NCBI RefSeq assembly: GCF_009669325.1
Contig: NZ_SZWE01000001.1
Location: 1,548,501 to 1,612,500, forward strand
Length of the DNA stretch: 64,000 nt
DNA from: Roseovarius bejariae
Lineage (GTDB): Bacteria > Pseudomonadota > Alphaproteobacteria > Rhodobacterales > Rhodobacteraceae
Reading direction: 5' to 3'
Part shown: positions 55,766 to 64,000 of the stretch, piece by piece
How positions within the stretch are numbered: the stretch's first letter is position 1
Layout of the letters: each line of letters starts with the position of its first letter
Translations under genes and position numbers: made by a program
Notes under the pieces: generated by a model
The model's database searches: none
Seen by the model: the letters and a program-made list of their open reading frames with translations, nothing else
What the model was told of the DNA's origin: nothing

Positions 55766-56143
55766 TTAGAATGGCTGCGACCTAAGCACCCTGTCTTCCA
55801 GCGAGCGGCCATGGCCTACGCCCACGCTGATAGCCTCGCGACCGCCACGATATTGCGGGCCTTTGCCCTTCCCACCGCTGGCGTGATCGGATTCATGATC
55901 GTCGTCATGGTCATCGACATGATCATCGCCGTGATCGTCTTCGCCACTGTGGGCATCCTCGGGCCGGCCAAACTGGCTACCGCCATGACCGCCTTCGTCA
56001 CCGGCACCGCGCCCCGCCCCGGGCGCGTGGTCACCGTCGCCTTCATCGGTGTGTTGTGCCAAGCCCGGCGCGGCAAGCATAACGGCAAAGATCCCGGTCA
56101 GGACAAGGCGGCGATTCATAGTGTTAAGTGACACGTTGACCAT
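55766..56143 (-). CDS. Secreted Asp/His-rich low-complexity protein
   Basis: This protein of about 117-125 residues has a signal peptide (NRRLVLTGIFAVMLAAPGLA). The mature part is dominated by Asp, His, Glu and Gly, with runs such as DDHGDDHVDDHDDDHESDH, consistent with metal or calcium binding or disorder. The start is uncertain: ATG at 56143, GTG at 56134 (best placed after GAAAGGA) or ATG at 56119. It lies 50 bp after the 405-residue secreted protein on the same strand. An overlapping frame on the other strand is rejected because this one has the leader and operon context. Confidence 0.6.
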   Translation of the reverse strand: MVNVSLNTMNRRLVLTGIFAVMLAAPGLAQHTDEGDGDHAPGAGRGAGDEGGHGGSQFGRPEDAHSGEDDHGDDHVDDHDDDHESDHASGGKGKGPQYRGGREAISVGVGHGRSLEDRVLRSQPF

Positions 56144-56193
56144 CCTTTCAAAGGCTGCGGGGCGGCGGCATGGCCGCCCCGCACTTCACTGGA

Positions 56194-57411
56194 TCATTCG
56201 ATAGCTTCCGGGACGGCGTATTCGTGGATAAACTCGATCACCGCCCGCGCATCATCCGCGGCCAGAGTGTAAGCGTCCAGAGATCCACTGGCCGAGTCAT
56301 CCACCGACCCGAACACCACGTCGTAGACATCGACGGTTTCAGCCTTGAAGGAGCCGTCCTCCTGTTCCACGAGCACGGTCGTGGTCACGCCCGAATATGT
56401 GTCGGAACGGTCATAGGAAAACGACGAATAGTCGACCTCGGAATACGTAACATCGCCGACCGTTGTGGCGTTGATGCCGAGGAAGGCGTCGATATAGGCG
56501 ATTTCATCCGTCGTGAATTCGCCTGTCTTGTCGGTTGCAGCGGCAAGGAATGCGGCGGATGCATCGAGATCAGCCTGCGTATACGTGCCATCCACCATGA
56601 AGTCGTATTCAGTGCCAACCAGATCGCCGGGCGTTAGCCCCGGAATGCTGCCAGTCGTCAGCAACGACACGTAGATCGCCAGGTTCTCCAATGGAGAATC
56701 GATGGTTTTCTCTTCTCCATCCACCGTCAGAACCAGACGCCCCGCGGCATCCGTGGATACGTCCGTTGCACTGGACAGAATGGCGATGACCTCATCGGCA
56801 CGCGTCGTCAGAACCCGCGATGGTGCACGGCCCACGTTCAGACGGCCAAGCTCGACCTCGGTTGTCAGTGTCTCGTCGACGGGGTGCCCTTCTTCATCGA
56901 GTTCGATGGGATTGCCATCCGCATCCAGCGGCTGCACGTATCCCTCATCGGTCAGGATGGGTACGCCGTTTTCGTCACGCAGTATGACCCAGAGATCACC
57001 GAAAATATCACCTTTCGTTGACCCTGCGTTTGGCGGCTGTCCGCCGCCTGCACCATCCTTACCCCCGGACTGACCGGCCCATTCCGGGCGGTCGGAGTCA
57101 TCGTCGCCTTCGTCTGCGGTATCTGCCGTGTCATCGTGTCCGCCGACCGGGTCGTCGTCCATGCCGGTGATGTCCTTGAAGATGCCGCCAAGGCCCTTCC
57201 CGGCGCCAGCGCCGCCCATCTGGCCACCTTGACCATGACCACCACCGGCACCGCCGCCGGACTGTGCGCCATGCGCCTGTTTGCCGGATCCGGACCCCTG
57301 TTGTGCCAGCGCCATATTCGGCGTGACCGCTGTGCTGGCAAGCGCCACTGCGGCGACACCAGCCGCAAGAATACCTTTTACCGACTTTTTGAACCGAACG
57401 AGTTCAGGCAT
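56194..57411 (-). CDS. Secreted Gly/Asp-rich hypothetical protein
   Basis: I do not recognise this 405-residue protein. It has a signal peptide (FKKSVKGILAAGVAAVALAS region, cleavage after ALA near residue 36), then a Gly/Gln-rich linker with GGGAGGGHGQGGQMGGAG, an acidic stretch (DDTADTADEGDDDSD), and a folded C-terminal part from about residue 130. Tandem turns such as RDENGVPILTDEGYVQPLD and ADGNPIELDEEGHPVD resemble short beta-hairpin repeats. The Shine-Dalgarno AGGAGG is strong. It sits between the multi-barrel outer-membrane gene and the Asp/His-rich protein, suggesting a shared cell-surface role. Confidence 0.6.
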   Translation of the reverse strand: MPELVRFKKSVKGILAAGVAAVALASTAVTPNMALAQQGSGSGKQAHGAQSGGGAGGGHGQGGQMGGAGAGKGLGGIFKDITGMDDDPVGGHDDTADTADEGDDDSDRPEWAGQSGGKDGAGGGQPPNAGSTKGDIFGDLWVILRDENGVPILTDEGYVQPLDADGNPIELDEEGHPVDETLTTEVELGRLNVGRAPSRVLTTRADEVIAILSSATDVSTDAAGRLVLTVDGEEKTIDSPLENLAIYVSLLTTGSIPGLTPGDLVGTEYDFMVDGTYTQADLDASAAFLAAATDKTGEFTTDEIAYIDAFLGINATTVGDVTYSEVDYSSFSYDRSDTYSGVTTTVLVEQEDGSFKAETVDVYDVVFGSVDDSASGSLDAYTLAADDARAVIEFIHEYAVPEAIE

Positions 57412-57569
57412 CAAATATCCTCCTATGAGCCAAAATTGCGCACCAAGCCCGAGGGGCCAAAAACGGCGCGCCGAAAAGCACAAACTTACGACACATGAAT
57501 CTACAAAAGCACAGATTTCACATTCAAAAACTGATTTGTGTCAACCGATCCATACGGCGGGCCGGGTTG

Positions 57570-60023
57570 TCAGAACTGTCGCGTCAGACCAATATGGAAT
57601 AGCCGTTCCGAGGTATCGAAACGGTCCGTACCCTGCCCATAAAAGACGGCATTCGCGTCATATTCCGTTTGCGTGTAGTCAAACCGGGCGGTCGTTTTCT
57701 TACCGACAGGAAACTCGATACCGGCACCGATCCGAATACCGTCCAGCGTTTCCCTCATATCGACGGCGGCCCCGCCATAGGTATAGTCAAAGTCGAATTC
57801 CGAACGTACGGCACCGGCCCGCCCATAGAGCAAGACATTGTCGTTCAGGACATAGCCGACACGAACGCCCAAGCCCACGGTCGAGAGCTTTTCAGCGGAG
57901 TAGATCCTGCCAGTAGGACTGCGCTCCACGTTCCAGTTCGCCGATGAAAGCTCGAACTCCGCTTCGCCGCCGACATAAAACCTTCCGTTCTGAACGCCGT
58001 AACCGGCGAAAAGGCCTCCGGTAAATCCTTGGCCTGCCCGGGTGGTGACAAGCGTGAAAGCCGGAGCCGCAGAATTGGGGCGAGGTCCGGAATTATCGCT
58101 TTGGATCGTTCCATGGCCAAGCTGCGCACCGGCATACAGGCCCGAGAAATCCGCCTTGGTTGCCGTTTGCGATGTGCTTGCCTGCTTGCCGAAGGCATAG
58201 ACAAGGCCGAAACGCGCAAGGCTTTCCACATTGGCGAAATTATCATTGTTTGCCGTGCCCATGGGCGACCCGATAGGATAGTCGTCATAGGCCCTGAGTT
58301 GATACTCCATCCGGCCGGACAATCCGTTGCCAAATGGAATCTCGGCGCCGACCCCGAACAATAGCCCGGTTTCGTTATCCGATTTGACGACAACAGGGTT
58401 TGCGCCTTGCTGATAGGTGCTGTCGAATTCCGCCGAGACCACGCCAAAGCGACCGTACAAAAGATTGCCACTGGTCGTACGAAGCCCTGCAATCCCGCTT
58501 AGCGCATAGGCGTTTCCGCGTTCGACCGCGAAGTTGCGACCCGCCAGGTGTGACCACTCCGTATCGTTGAGCTCCGCCTCGACCTCGGCCCCCAGAACGA
58601 GATTGCCGAATTCGCGCCGATACCCTGCGAATACCCCGCCGGCCAGGCCGTGATCCCCGAAATCCGCCGTCAGGTTCCCGCCCGCGCCGCGCGGGCCGTC
58701 AACCTTGGTATGCATGGCGTTGTCACCAACCTGCACACCGGCATAAAAGCCACCTGCGCCTGCCTTTGCCAGATTATCGGTTTTCTTGTCGAAACGCGGG
58801 TTGAGAGAGGCCCCAAAGCGCAGCGTGATCCTGTGTTCATCGAAATCCGCCCCGGCCACGTCGGATTGACGCTGACGAAAATCATAGTTCGTATCCAGAT
58901 AAAGGCGCGGATTGAAATAGTACCGCAGCGACAGCCCCGTTTCCTTGAGCATGTCGGTCCGCGGAAGGTTCTGATAATCGTTTTGCGTCAGAAACCCGTA
59001 TGCCGCCAATGACATGTTGCTTGCCACGCGATGGCGCAATCGCAGGCCCGCGGATGAGGATACATAACCTGACGCGCCGGACAGGGTGGTTTCCTCGATA
59101 CTGCGCTCGACAATCGCGTCGAGTTCGGTGCCGCCACCCAACGGCATTGTCACATCGGCCCCGAGGTCAACCGCAACAGTCGTGCCAAATCGCGGGTCGT
59201 CATAGTCCTGCGACATTAGCCCAAGCAGAACCTCGCCCTCCATCGGGCCGATCGCGCCGGTATAACCCAATGCGGCCTGGTAGCCTTTGGAGCTGCGCTG
59301 AAACCCGGCCCCCTGATTGTCGATCGCCTGATCGTATTCGCGGTGATCGTAAATTCCCTGAACGAACAGCTCGCCATTTTCGGTGCTGGCAACCCCAAGG
59401 CGCCCACCGAACTCGATCTGGCGGCGGTCGCGGTCATCATTGTCGATCACGCCCAATGCTGCGGGCGTGTCATCGTAGTTCAGGTCCCGTACATTCAGGC
59501 CCAAACGGAAATTGCGGTCGGCCACCTTGCCGCCCAGTCCAATATATCCGCTCGCCTCACGCAGCTCTGTCGGTCGCGAACCGTTCACGTCATCCGGGGA
59601 CTCACGGCTTTCGTGGCCCAGCGAGTAATCCAGACCGCCAAAGGCAAAAACCGTATCGCTGATACGATATTGCGCTTCGCCCCCCAGGAAATAATCTTCG
59701 TAGTCTTCGTTCGAGTTTTCGGCAAAACGCGCGATTTCGGCACTTGCCTCCAGGTTCAGCCGGAAATTTTCCGCCCGGTACGACAGCCCCATCCAAGGCG
59801 CAAAAACCGTGATGAAATCTGAGCGGCGGTCGTTGGCCGTTAAAAACACATTGTCGGTATACTGCTCCGAGAATGTAGCCCCTGCATCGAATTCGAAAGG
59901 CATACGGTCCTGAGTGGAAGCTGACAGAACATCGATGTTCTGCGCGAAAGTAAAATCTGCAGAAAGTAGAAAAACCGTTGAAACTGATACACCGCAGACA
60001 AAAACTGTTTTGCCAAGCGTCAT
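57570..60023 (-). CDS. Large outer-membrane protein with one long and two short beta-barrel domains
   Basis: This 817-residue protein has a signal peptide (MTLGKTVFVCGVSVSTVFLL, cleavage near residue 28) and alternating amphipathic beta strands throughout. Residues about 40-435 look like a BBP2-type barrel of polysaccharide-linked outer-membrane proteins (DAGATFSEQYTDNVFLT, ending LRFGASLNPRF). Residues about 445-620 and 640-817 are two copies of an OmpA/Omp25-like eight-strand barrel, each opening (G/S)GxYAG(V/A)Q(V/L)G and ending in a terminal aromatic strand; the last residue is Phe, as expected for BAM insertion. The ATG at 60023 has GGGAG upstream. Domain limits are estimates. Confidence 0.75.
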   Translation of the reverse strand: MTLGKTVFVCGVSVSTVFLLSADFTFAQNIDVLSASTQDRMPFEFDAGATFSEQYTDNVFLTANDRRSDFITVFAPWMGLSYRAENFRLNLEASAEIARFAENSNEDYEDYFLGGEAQYRISDTVFAFGGLDYSLGHESRESPDDVNGSRPTELREASGYIGLGGKVADRNFRLGLNVRDLNYDDTPAALGVIDNDDRDRRQIEFGGRLGVASTENGELFVQGIYDHREYDQAIDNQGAGFQRSSKGYQAALGYTGAIGPMEGEVLLGLMSQDYDDPRFGTTVAVDLGADVTMPLGGGTELDAIVERSIEETTLSGASGYVSSSAGLRLRHRVASNMSLAAYGFLTQNDYQNLPRTDMLKETGLSLRYYFNPRLYLDTNYDFRQRQSDVAGADFDEHRITLRFGASLNPRFDKKTDNLAKAGAGGFYAGVQVGDNAMHTKVDGPRGAGGNLTADFGDHGLAGGVFAGYRREFGNLVLGAEVEAELNDTEWSHLAGRNFAVERGNAYALSGIAGLRTTSGNLLYGRFGVVSAEFDSTYQQGANPVVVKSDNETGLLFGVGAEIPFGNGLSGRMEYQLRAYDDYPIGSPMGTANNDNFANVESLARFGLVYAFGKQASTSQTATKADFSGLYAGAQLGHGTIQSDNSGPRPNSAAPAFTLVTTRAGQGFTGGLFAGYGVQNGRFYVGGEAEFELSSANWNVERSPTGRIYSAEKLSTVGLGVRVGYVLNDNVLLYGRAGAVRSEFDFDYTYGGAAVDMRETLDGIRIGAGIEFPVGKKTTARFDYTQTEYDANAVFYGQGTDRFDTSERLFHIGLTRQF

Positions 60024-60385
60024 GGCCAGCTCCCGCAATGGATTATGTTGTCGCAACCCAAGTTAAGCAAGGCGCGTAAAACTTAAAACATTCATCTTTT
60101 CCTATTCTTTGAAATCCTCAGCCATGTTGCAAAATTAATATTTTATATTCGACGAAGTGGTCATGGCTTCGATATTAGAGTCGTTAGCTGCCACCCTAGG
60201 CTTTCGCCATATACTCCGTGCCAGTTGAGTTCCCCTGAAAACCGACGACAGAACGCGTTTGTAATTGCCAGACGCACCGGCCAGCTTATTCAACGCTTTA
60301 CGTTCAATCGTAGCACCAAGCGCTCACACACCAAAGACCGCTAAATAGGCGCGGCGCGTTAATCCTTGTTATATGTGGGTAATTT
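60024..60385. other. AT-rich intergenic region, no gene seen
   Basis: These 362 bp lie between the multi-barrel gene and tRNA-fMet. The part at 60060-60180 is clearly AT-rich and should hold the promoter of the 60023 gene. No ORF with homology, tRNA or clear intrinsic terminator for the rRNA operon is visible. Confidence 0.6.
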
Positions 60386-60462
<77 letters not shown>

Positions 60463-60537
60463 CCAATTGCGTCGCCCTAAGCAAAGATCGGTGGTTAGGG
60501 CGTCATCGTAAGAGAGATACCTTCAAGGGTCTTACTA

Positions 60538-60655
60538 GGTTTGGCGGCGACCTACTCTCCCACGTCTTAAGACGCAGTACCATCGGCGCTAAGGCACTTA
60601 ACGGCCGGGTTCGGGATGGGACCGGGTGTTTTGCTCTTGCTATGACCACCAAACC
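60538..60655 (-). rRNA. rrf: 5S ribosomal RNA
   Basis: The terminal helix pairs GGTTTGG with CCAAACC and the interior has the standard CCCATCCCGAAC and GTGCCTTAGCGCCGATGGTA segments. It lies between 23S and tRNA-fMet. Ends are accurate to a few bases. Confidence 0.95.
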
Positions 60656-61162
60656 GAGAAAAACCCTTGAAATTCCAAGTCGTACACAATGGTGTGTATG
60701 CTTTCGACCAGTAAGTCAGTCTGACTTCTACTGGATCAAATCAAGCCTATCGGACAATTAGTACCGGTCAACTGAACGCATTGCTGCGCTTACATCTCCG
60801 GCCTATCGACGTGGTGGTCTTCCACGGTCCTCAGGGATACCTTGTTTTGAGGGGGGCTTCCCGCTTAGATGCCTTCAGCGGTTATCCTGTCCGATCATAG
60901 CTACCCTGCACTGCTGCTGGCGCAACAACAGGTCCACCAGTGGATCGTTCACCCCGGTCCTCTCGTACTAGGGGCAACTCCTCTCAAGTATCCTACACCC
61001 ACGGCAGATAGGGACCGAACTGTCTCACGACGTTCTAAACCCAGCTCACGTACCTCTTTAAACGGCGAACAGCCGTACCCTTGGGACCTGCTCCAGCCCC
61101 AGGATGAGATGAGCCGACATCGAGGTGCCAAACACTGCCGTCGATATGGACTCTTGGGCAGT

Positions 61163-61216
<54 letters not shown>

Positions 61217-61339
61217 GCGGGACCACCGGATCACTATGGCCGTCTTTCGACTCTGCTCGACTTGTCAGTCTCGCAGTCAGGCTGGCTTCTGCCATTGCAC
61301 TCAACGAGCGATTTCCGACCGCTCTGAGCCAACCTTCGC

Positions 61340-61389
<50 letters not shown>

Positions 61390-61644
61390 ACGCAGGGTCC
61401 CGGATCCGGATAACGGACCGCGGTTAGACATCAAGAGTGCGAAGGGTGGTATCTCAAGGGAGGCTCCACAGGAACTAGCGTTCCTGCTTCAAAGCCTACC
61501 ACCTATCCTGCACATCACAATCCTGATGCCAGTGCGAAGCTGTAGTAAAGGTGCACGGGGTCTTTCCGTCTAACCGCGGGAAGCCTGCATCTTGACAGGC
61601 AATTCAATTTCGCTGAGTCGATGTTGGAGACAGCGGGGAAGTCG

Positions 61645-61727
<83 letters not shown>

Positions 61728-62463
61728 TGGGCTTCAATTCAAGGCTCTCACCTCTCCTTTTAACCTTCAGGCACCGGGCAGGCGTCAGACCCTATACGTC
61801 GTCTTGCGACTTCGCAGAGCCCTGTGTTTTTAGTAAACAGTCGCCACCCCCTGGTTTGTGCCCCCAGCCAATACTTGCGTAGAAACTGGGCCTCCTTCTC
61901 GCGAACTTACGGAGGTATTTTGCCGAGTTCCTTCAACATCGTTCTCTCAAGCGCCTTGGTATTCTCTACCAGTCCACCTGTGTTGGTTTAGGGTACGATC
62001 TGATGGAGGTGCTATTTCCAGGGACTGATTAGCGGCCCAGACAATCCGATAAGCCTGAACAACCTTCACAATCCGTCACATCCTCCTGGCCCAGGAATAT
62101 TAACCTGGTTCCCATCGACTACGCCTTTCGGCCTCGCCTTAGGGGTCGGCTTACCCTGCTCAGATTAGCTTTAAGCAGGAACCCTTGGACTTTCGGCGAC
62201 AGGGTCTCTCACCCTGTTTGTCGCTACTCATGTCATCATTCTCGCTAGTGATCTCTCCACCGGATCGCTCACGCGCCGGCTTCACAGAAAGTTCCTCTCC
62301 TCCAATGTACCGCGAACGGCACTAAGGAGGAATGGAACTATGTCACACTACGCTCTGCTACCATGCCTTACGGCATCCTAAGCTTCGGCTCGTGGCTTGA
62401 GCCCCGTTACATCTTCGCCGCAGGACAACTTATTTAGACCAGTGAGCTGTTACGCTATCTTTA

Positions 62464-62494
<31 letters not shown>

Positions 62495-62992
62495 TTGTTT
62501 TGGTCGTCCCACCTGCTTTCCCACTTAGCCACGAATTGGGGGCCTTAGCTGTAGGTCAGGGTTGTTTCCCTCTCCACAACGGACGTTAGCATCCGCTGTG
62601 TGTCTGCCATCTAGTACTCCTCGGTATTCGGAGTTTGGTTAGGATCAGTAAGCCTGTGGGGCCCCATTACCCATCCAGTGCTCTACCCCCGAGGGTATTC
62701 GGATGACGCTCTACCTAAATAGATTTCGCAGAGAACCAGCTATCTCCGAGTTTGATTGGCCTTTCACCCCTAGGCACAACTCATCCCGATCTTTTTCAAC
62801 AGATGTGGGTTCGGCCCTCCAGTAAGTGTTACCTTACCTTCAGCCTGGTCATGCCTAGATCACTCGGTTTCGGGTCTGATCCATCTAACTCGACGCCCTA
62901 TTAAGACTCGCTTTCGCTGCGCCTACACCTAACGGCTTAAGCTTGCTAGATAGACCAAGTCGATGACCCATTATACAAAAGGTACGCCGTCA

Positions 62993-63016
62993 CAAGACTG
63001 GACACTAATGACAACC
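62993..63016 (-). repeat. 3' arm of the intervening-sequence stem
   Basis: In rRNA sense this arm pairs with the arm at 63595-63618: 21 of 24 positions pair (one as G-U), with three U-U mismatches. It directly follows the TAA stop codon of the internal ORF. Confidence 0.9.
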
Positions 63017-63617
63017 TTATCTGGTTGGTATGGACACCCGGAATTGCACCGTTTCAAGGCCAGGGTTGTAACTGTAGATGCCCATGTTCGACCGATGGTC
63101 GACACTCAGGCTCATCTTTACCCCTTGCTTGTTTTTGTATCCGACCTCGATACCAGACCGAAATTCGATCGGCCCGCCGAGATCAACGCCGCTGCCTTCT
63201 TCATAAAGGCCGGTCATCGCATTCAAGGTCAGAAAGAGGTTATCTTTGCGATTGGAAACCGTGTAGGCGTGGCCGAAACCAGCCCAAAGTTCACCATCAC
63301 TTGAAGCAGAAACACCCCATACGCGTTGAAACGGTCCATCTGCTCGGGCTGTTTCGCGCCGGAAGTAGAATTCTTCTCCAACCTCGTTCTTCTGAAAGTG
63401 CGTCGTGCCGACCGCAAGGCTGTTATATGATTGTACTTCGTTTTTTGCGAAGCACCCCTCGTTTGGGCAATGGTTAACACCGGCATCAACCAATCCTGCG
63501 ATGAAGAAGATTGCTGCTGCTGTTCCATCTGTAATAAAAGCCAGGTCCGACACTGTCCGCTCCATTATTGAGTGTTTGCACACTTCATGAAGCAGATTGT
63601 CATTAGAGTCCAGTCAA
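62994..63617 (-). other. ORF-bearing intervening sequence in 23S helix 25
   Basis: The insert replaces the loop of helix 25 at the site known for short (about 100 nt) intervening sequences in enterobacteria and longer ones elsewhere. It has complementary ends that extend the helix and is almost entirely filled by one ORF in rRNA sense. In known cases RNase III cuts such stems and the 23S stays functional as two fragments; the same is expected here. Base composition is lower in GC than the protein genes of the window. Confidence 0.9.
63017..63583 (-). CDS. PagL/acyloxyacyl-hydrolase-like protein encoded inside 23S rRNA
   Basis: The open frame gives 188 residues from a GTG at 63583, or 182 from an ATG at 63565. 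Its C-terminal half reads as amphipathic beta strands (GPIEFRSGIEVGYKNKQG) and ends with DHRSNMGIYSYNPGLE plus a last strand VQFRVSIP. His163, Ser165 and Glu177 have exactly the H-x-S-x11-E spacing of the PagL lipid A 3-O-deacylase triad, and Asn after Ser and NPG before Glu also fit. A hydrophobic N-terminal stretch (AAAIFFIAGLVDAG) could serve as export signal but contains Asp. No Shine-Dalgarno is seen before either start. Third codon positions are mixed, unlike the GC-rich neighbours. The stop abuts the 3' stem arm. Expression is unproven. Confidence 0.8.
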   Translation of the reverse strand: MCKHSIMERTVSDLAFITDGTAAAIFFIAGLVDAGVNHCPNEGCFAKNEVQSYNSLAVGTTHFQKNEVGEEFYFRRETARADGPFQRVWGVSASSDGELWAGFGHAYTVSNRKDNLFLTLNAMTGLYEEGSGVDLGGPIEFRSGIEVGYKNKQGVKMSLSVDHRSNMGIYSYNPGLETVQFRVSIPTR

Positions 63618-63618
63618 G
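63595..63618 (-). repeat. 5' arm of the intervening-sequence stem
   Basis: This arm begins at the tip of the retained helix 25 strand and is the imperfect inverse of 62993-63016 (20 of 24 bases identical after inversion). The two give a long RNase III-type duplex. Confidence 0.9.
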
Positions 63619-64000
63619 CTCCGACTGATTGTAGGCGCTCGGTTTCAGGTACTGTTTCACTCCCCTCGTCGGGGTGCTTTTCACCTTTCCCTCACGGTAC
63701 TGGTTCGCTATCGGTCAGTAAGGAGTACTTAGCCTTCGAGGGTGGTCCCCCGATCTTCAGACAGGATTTCACGTGTCCCGCCCTACTTAATACGTCCCAT
63801 CGAGCTTCTCATACGGGGCTGTCACCCGCTATGGCCATGCTTTCCAACATGTTCTGATCACTCTCAAGGCTCGGCTGGTCCCCGTTCGCTCGCCGCTACT
63901 AGGGGAGTATCAATTGATTTCCTTTCCTCCGGGTACTTAGATGTTTCAGTTCTCCGGGTTTGCTCTTAAAACCCTATGTATTCAGGTTTTAAGTACCTGT

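Follow-up and report, generated by a model that had tools for sequence, protein, structure and literature searches.

The question raised by this locus is why the only 23S ribosomal RNA (rRNA) gene found in the whole genome of Roseovarius bejariae (G000) should contain an open reading frame (ORF), and whether the encoded protein is made and used. The gene lies at the end of the 64,000-nucleotide stretch analysed here (the window), and an initial annotation, made from the letters of the stretch, had reported that the flanks of helix 25 are split there by an insert carrying a sense ORF with a PagL-type (lipid A deacylase) motif. We found that positions 62994-63617 of the minus strand are an insert within the 23S gene, at the tip of helix 25, standing in place of about nucleotides (nt) 541-551 of the E. 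coli 23S rRNA (alignment to E. coli rrlB), and that the ORF reads in the 23S sense direction. The reported split was borne out by this alignment, by the empty sites of relatives and by 41 distinct inserts read whole. Judged by profile and predicted fold the insert protein is PagL-like, and the pattern of substitutions indicates that purifying selection is preserving it. We consider it probable, from these sequences and the structural model, that the locus encodes a working PagL-type enzyme which the rRNA operon expresses by way of a message cut out of the precursor rRNA (pre-rRNA).

The host 23S gene occupies 60737-64000 on the minus strand, running about 2 bases beyond the window end (Rfam RF02541, 2451.9 bits), and the copy inside it was the sole PagL-family gene found in the genome. 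Helix 25 is a known hotspot for intervening sequences (IVSs), so the insert lies where a 23S rRNA IVS is expected. The corresponding empty site was read in 44 relatives (7 from the genus and 37 from the family sample) and measured 10-17 nt, apart from one genome with 0 nt; within the family sample it was 10-11 nt in 36 of 37 genomes and 14 nt in the other. In the 0-nt case (L092, genome G243) the helix 25 tip was wholly gone, with nothing separating the flanks.

To find related inserts, the insert plus its flanks was searched against 84 genus genomes and 149 family genomes (one per genus), giving matches, empty sites included, in at least 49 and at least 55 of them respectively; for genomes without a match at most 2 or 5 candidates were scored in each, and the lack of a match there does not show that the insert is absent. 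Of the 41 distinct inserts, 32 came from genus genomes, 8 from as many other family genera and the last from a draft (EhC02), with Roseovarius aestuarii, R. pacificus, R. spongiae, R. atlanticus and Pseudohalocynthiibacter among the carriers. A class-wide search of 289 genomes returned two matches above 150 bits, both from the same family, and the next best scored 88 bits. Left out of the 41 were inserts wholly or partly recorded as N (L018/L085, L024/L081, L048, L049, L079, L082, L083 and L084) and one contig-edge copy (L050); the 3' part of the ORF was visible ahead of the 23S in L018/L085, L079, L024/L081 and L050. L018 and L024 were considered as truncated pagL remnants and rejected as such, their records being partly N and holding no information on decay. 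At L048 (G106), L083 (G028) and L084 (G209) the same site is occupied by inserts that measure 624-735 nt and are recorded as N, and they may be further nested copies because no pagL was found elsewhere in those three genomes.

The ORF occupies 63017-63553 on the minus strand, with a GTG start and a TAA stop directly 5' of the 3' arm of the closing stem described below; its assignment rests on PF09411, the model and conservation. We took the start to be GTG 63553, not GTG 63583, because the resulting length of 178 amino acids is found in 34 of the 41 inserts and a Shine-Dalgarno-like (SD-like) site precedes this start in 40. The initial annotation was thus correct in the ORF itself, and its length of 188 residues, its start and its numbering (His163, Ser165 and Glu177) were replaced by 178 residues and His153, Ser155 and Glu167. 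The product scored 44.5 bits against PF09411 (PagL; curated cut-off 23), a profile that also matched 80 of 80 relatives (set A1), and the predicted model had eight long strands forming an outer-membrane-type barrel (predicted local distance difference test score, pLDDT, 92.7) for which PagL 2ERV was the best match in the PDB, ranked first in both Foldseek and VIA. The motif that had been noticed at catalytic spacing was confirmed by profile alignment to 2ERV: His153 (codon 63095-63097), Ser155 (63089-63091) and Glu167 (63053-63055), all on the minus strand, align to residues 126, 128 and 140, are spaced +0, +2 and +14 as in PagL, and are identical in 53 of 53 ORFs. These are the residues whose PagL counterparts we take to be catalytic. 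The protein was not of the S23-type four-helix-bundle kind, as Pfam gave PagL alone and the model was a barrel. A phmmer search of the whole protein against the PDB gave no PagL match, 2ERV being reached by the profile search alone, and NCBIfam gave no match for the product. We also observed that all 80 members of set A1 have Cys29 and Cys34 (window 63468-63553), marking a PagL subfamily with an unusual N-terminus.

The protein, if expressed, might be a barrel other than a lipid A 3-O-deacylase, either another acyl hydrolase or a barrel without enzymatic function. We regard this as unlikely, given that His, Ser and Glu are invariant at the PagL positions and that the PF09411 score exceeds its cut-off.

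The history of the insert was examined by comparing nested pagL with rpoB, the rpoB ORF being identified in each genome through its resemblance to a known stretch of that gene. Pairwise distances for the two genes were correlated (r 0.67 across 40 genomes, a value that none of 1000 permutations reached), and the two had 16 of 37 splits in common, against at most 3 with permuted labels. Because of this correlation and these shared splits the insert seems to have been mostly inherited with the genome, and since nested-gene distances follow rpoB its residence looks long. A protein tree that combined 40 nested rows with 17 standalone ones (57 in all) needed 8 changes between the two states, at least 5 of them by starred branches. 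A close standalone homologue (>150 bits) was present in 0 of 40 genomes with a nested copy and in 9 of 44 with an empty site (Fisher p 0.003, the genomes not being independent), and in the genus alone in 0 of 32 and 2 of 7 (p 0.03); G200, with a nested copy, also holds a distant PagL (52.7 bits). A run of neighbour genes was common to L108-L111, four standalone copies that branch deeply and come from different genera, and this suggests that the gene originally resided at an ordinary chromosomal locus. The other standalone copies compared had no common run, giving single weak gene matches (L038-L098, L038-L039).

A mobile or selfish IVS, spreading between genomes with a protein that serves the insert itself, would account for the patchy distribution in the family and for the tree of the 23S flanks, which needed 16 changes of state (at least 9 by starred branches). 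It would also account for two clashes of placement, the G200 insert grouping with the genus in the pagL tree and with G193 on rpoB, and G121 lying among genus members on rpoB and in another pagL group. Such a history is nevertheless improbable, in that Pfam gave PagL alone within the insert, with no endonuclease or transposase, while Rfam at its gathering threshold gave 23S, 5S and tRNA alone within 56000-64000, so that neither database revealed a group I or group II intron or a homing element. Furthermore, close standalone relatives exist without any insert around them, and distances mostly follow rpoB. Genera with the nested gene were closer to one another than empty-site genera in every bin of the 23S flanks, not just near the insert; as flank similarity did not decay away from the insert there was no sign of spread by local recombination, and a reading by hitch-hiking flanks was rejected. 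The selfish passenger that the initial annotation had kept as an alternative has become less likely, through the absence of a mobility protein from the insert, the intact copies outside the 23S and the low ratio of nonsynonymous to synonymous divergence (dN/dS) given next.

The ORF was intact in all 41 whole inserts, at 171-178 amino acids, and the median dN/dS was 0.05 over 21 nested pairs with dS of 0.05-1, the top value of 0.56 belonging to a distant pair (dS 0.99). Comparing the window with L026 gave dN 0.028 and dS 0.598, and diversity at codon positions 1, 2 and 3 was 0.31, 0.22 and 0.59. The selection on the protein that had been proposed from its intact residues was thereby substantiated. 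Frames running from the upstream 23S flank into pagL occurred in some inserts, with no single conserved frame among them. The start codon follows after 64 nt of insert and has ahead of it an SD-like GGAG at 63560-63563 (minus strand); sites of this kind preceded 40 of 41 insert starts, compared with 112 of 688 internal ATG or GTG codons (16%). At the other end, the stop at 63017-63019 abuts the 3' arm, and 19 of the 41 inserts end just 21 nt beyond the stop, which there shares two bases with the arm.

These features bear on whether the gene is an untranslated passenger, a pagL that fell into helix 25 and stays unexpressed. This is what has been proposed for the S23 ORF of Coxiella, where the IVS RNA is quickly degraded and the ORF is judged not expressed (PMC4990558). 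For the present gene we think it very unlikely, in view of the 41 intact ORFs, the strong constraint on them, the placement of SD-like sites and the long co-divergence with rpoB. Ribosomal RNA genes are prone to misassembly, but an artefact or contamination at an rRNA repeat can be practically dismissed, the same junctions being present in 41 distinct inserts, nine of them within contigs >3.5 Mb with 23S on either side, and in both 23S copies of one genome (G238), whose inserts are identical. Overall, profile and fold matches were obtained, no stops interrupted the ORF in the 41 whole inserts, and the junctions were not artefacts.

The insert begins TTGACTGGACTCTAATGACAATC and finishes GGTTGTCATTAGTGTCCAGTCTT, and its ends form a closing stem with a 21-nt 5' arm at 63595-63615 and a 21-nt 3' arm at 62996-63016 (both minus strand). 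The arms pair at 20 of 21 positions, the exception being position 9 with its U.U mismatch, and the cofold energy is -31.9 kcal/mol. The same stem was present in 41 of 41 inserts, so they have the complementary ends of an IVS; 804 of 861 cells were paired and position 9 was mismatched in all 41. Two-sided changes numbered 9, while re-dealing the arms 1000 times gave 2.4 on average and never more than 6, although kinship among the inserts can inflate such counts, and paired cells exceeded the re-dealt arms (mean 796, maximum 801) only slightly because the arms hardly vary. An RNase III gene was present in the genome. An element of about 30 nt (CCTCAAGTAG, hairpin, GGTAGG) was seen to recur in longer inserts on either side of the ORF (L011, L017, L044, L045 and L077) and once outside an insert (L032, near 6855); a search of Rfam at E 0.5 matched it in none of the five loci with inserts.

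Expression of a PagL-type enzyme from the rRNA operon, the reading that we favour, could proceed as follows. The gene of the outer-membrane acyl hydrolase would be co-transcribed as part of the pre-rRNA, and the long stem, which looks like an RNase III substrate, would be cut by RNase III, after which the 23S would function as two pieces. Two-piece 23S elsewhere is reported to have no detected effect on ribosome function (PMC8708148). The piece cut out would be a complete small mRNA, because the start signal and the stop lie between the arms or overlap the start of the 3' arm. Translation would use either this freed piece, about 600 nt long, or the precursor still uncut, and ribosomes may load before the cut. 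The protein would then go to the outer membrane and take an acyl chain off lipid A or a similar lipid, and its dose would track rRNA synthesis, which agrees with the anatomy of the locus.

Several observations weigh against this reading. The IVS ORF of Coxiella, the best-studied case that we found, is judged to be unexpressed (PMC4990558). In the 178-residue form the model places a hydrophobic helix at residues 11-27 with no basic residues ahead of it, and export is not obvious because the N-terminus has none of the basic residues typical of an ordinary signal peptide. In five genus genomes the site is empty and a close homologue is lacking; we count these as losses, and the gene is dispensable on that account. 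Finally, the tendency for a genome to have either a nested or a standalone copy was weak when counted per genus (0 of 9 versus 7 of 37, p 0.32).

The gene has also been found outside the 23S. In the protein tree the standalone genes of R. albus (L098) and its sister G249 nest within the nested clade, and the 23S site of R. albus is empty (L097). The DNA upstream of both genes contained a decayed copy of the 5' arm, scoring 30 and 35 against a maximum of 27 (100 shuffles each). These alignments (L009, 30; L086, 35) were to the arm itself and lay beyond all 100 shuffles, among 17 standalone copies compared. With 17 such tests one chance excess would be unsurprising, and the stronger point is that L009 and L086 are sister rows that both begin at the first bases of the arm. 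A possible fossil in L100 (26 versus 24 in shuffles) was not counted, having aligned to an unrelated leader stretch, and no fossil of the 3' arm was found in the 17 copies. In G249 the standalone gene is on the same strand as the 5S gene and 220 nt 3' of it, and in R. albus it lies about 1.4 kb behind the 5S with an opposite-strand ORF between. From the fossil arms and the 5S neighbourhood, it appears that the gene departed from helix 25 on one occasion or more and then remained next to the rRNA operon. A standalone pagL in G156 (L102), without a fossil arm, converges on a 5S gene at a distance of about 0.3 kb; three standalone copies in total adjoined rRNA operons. We suggest tentatively, as a possibility short of probable, that the rRNA operon doubles as a protein operon in which excision from the pre-23S supplies the message of a lipid enzyme, and that selection retains the tie, also in the exited gene beside the 5S.

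The minus strand of the window terminates in the remainder of this operon, the 23S being followed by a 5S rRNA at 60539-60653 (Rfam RF00001, 96.2 bits) and, 3' of the 5S, by a tRNA-Met at 60386-60462 (ARAGORN and Rfam), both on the minus strand. The next large ORF beyond the operon, at 57570-60056, begins with TTG and encodes an 828-residue protein made up of a BBP2_2 porin-like part together with two more outer-membrane barrel parts.

IVSs of the 23S have mostly been regarded as useless or selfish, and here dozens of species keep an enzyme gene intact within one. Many marine Roseovarius-type bacteria may, on this evidence, obtain an envelope enzyme from part of an rRNA transcript; if so, envelope remodelling might be tied to ribosome synthesis, and the locus may be an example of a natural mRNA that derives from pre-rRNA. 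As the translation signals lie inside the piece, the function of such sequences becomes directly testable in culturable marine bacteria. Some databases list such proteins (P0009, P0027) as 'Lipid A 3-O-deacylase (PagL)', and apparently they have been annotated before without notice of their location inside the 23S. Similar genes may be overlooked elsewhere, annotation probably often leaving rRNA genes unscreened for protein genes. A literature search on 23S inserts in connection with PagL, acyloxyacyl hydrolase, Roseovarius, Rhodobacteraceae or outer-membrane proteins, with few subscription journals in its scope, found no description of such a gene, in keeping with the initial annotation, which had known of none in helix 25.

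In the reports consulted, the protein genes known from rRNA inserts are those of S23-type proteins, homing endonucleases and transposases (PMC4990558, PMC11270868, PMC2672173). Introns with homing endonucleases and IVSs with transposases, from candidate phyla radiation (CPR) bacteria, Deinococcus and Nostoc, resemble the present insert in placing protein genes within the 23S (PMC11270868, PMC2672173); those proteins move DNA, whereas the searches of this one yielded neither an intron structure nor a mobility protein. PagL of Pseudomonas aeruginosa (2ERV) resembles the insert protein in the predicted fold and in His, Ser, Asn and Glu at matching positions, and differs from it at 20% identity, the insert protein having an unusual N-terminus and a gene inside the 23S. 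In arrangement the insert resembles the S23-type IVSs of Coxiella and Leptospira (23S_rRNA_IVP), which also place a stem and one ORF in a hotspot helix (9, 25 or 45; PMC4990558). Their protein is a four-helix bundle of unassigned function, whereas the one encoded here is PagL-type and under purifying selection. In Coxiella, according to the same report, the ORF is decaying and its SD region is lost upon excision (PMC4990558), whereas here the SD-like site lies inside the piece.
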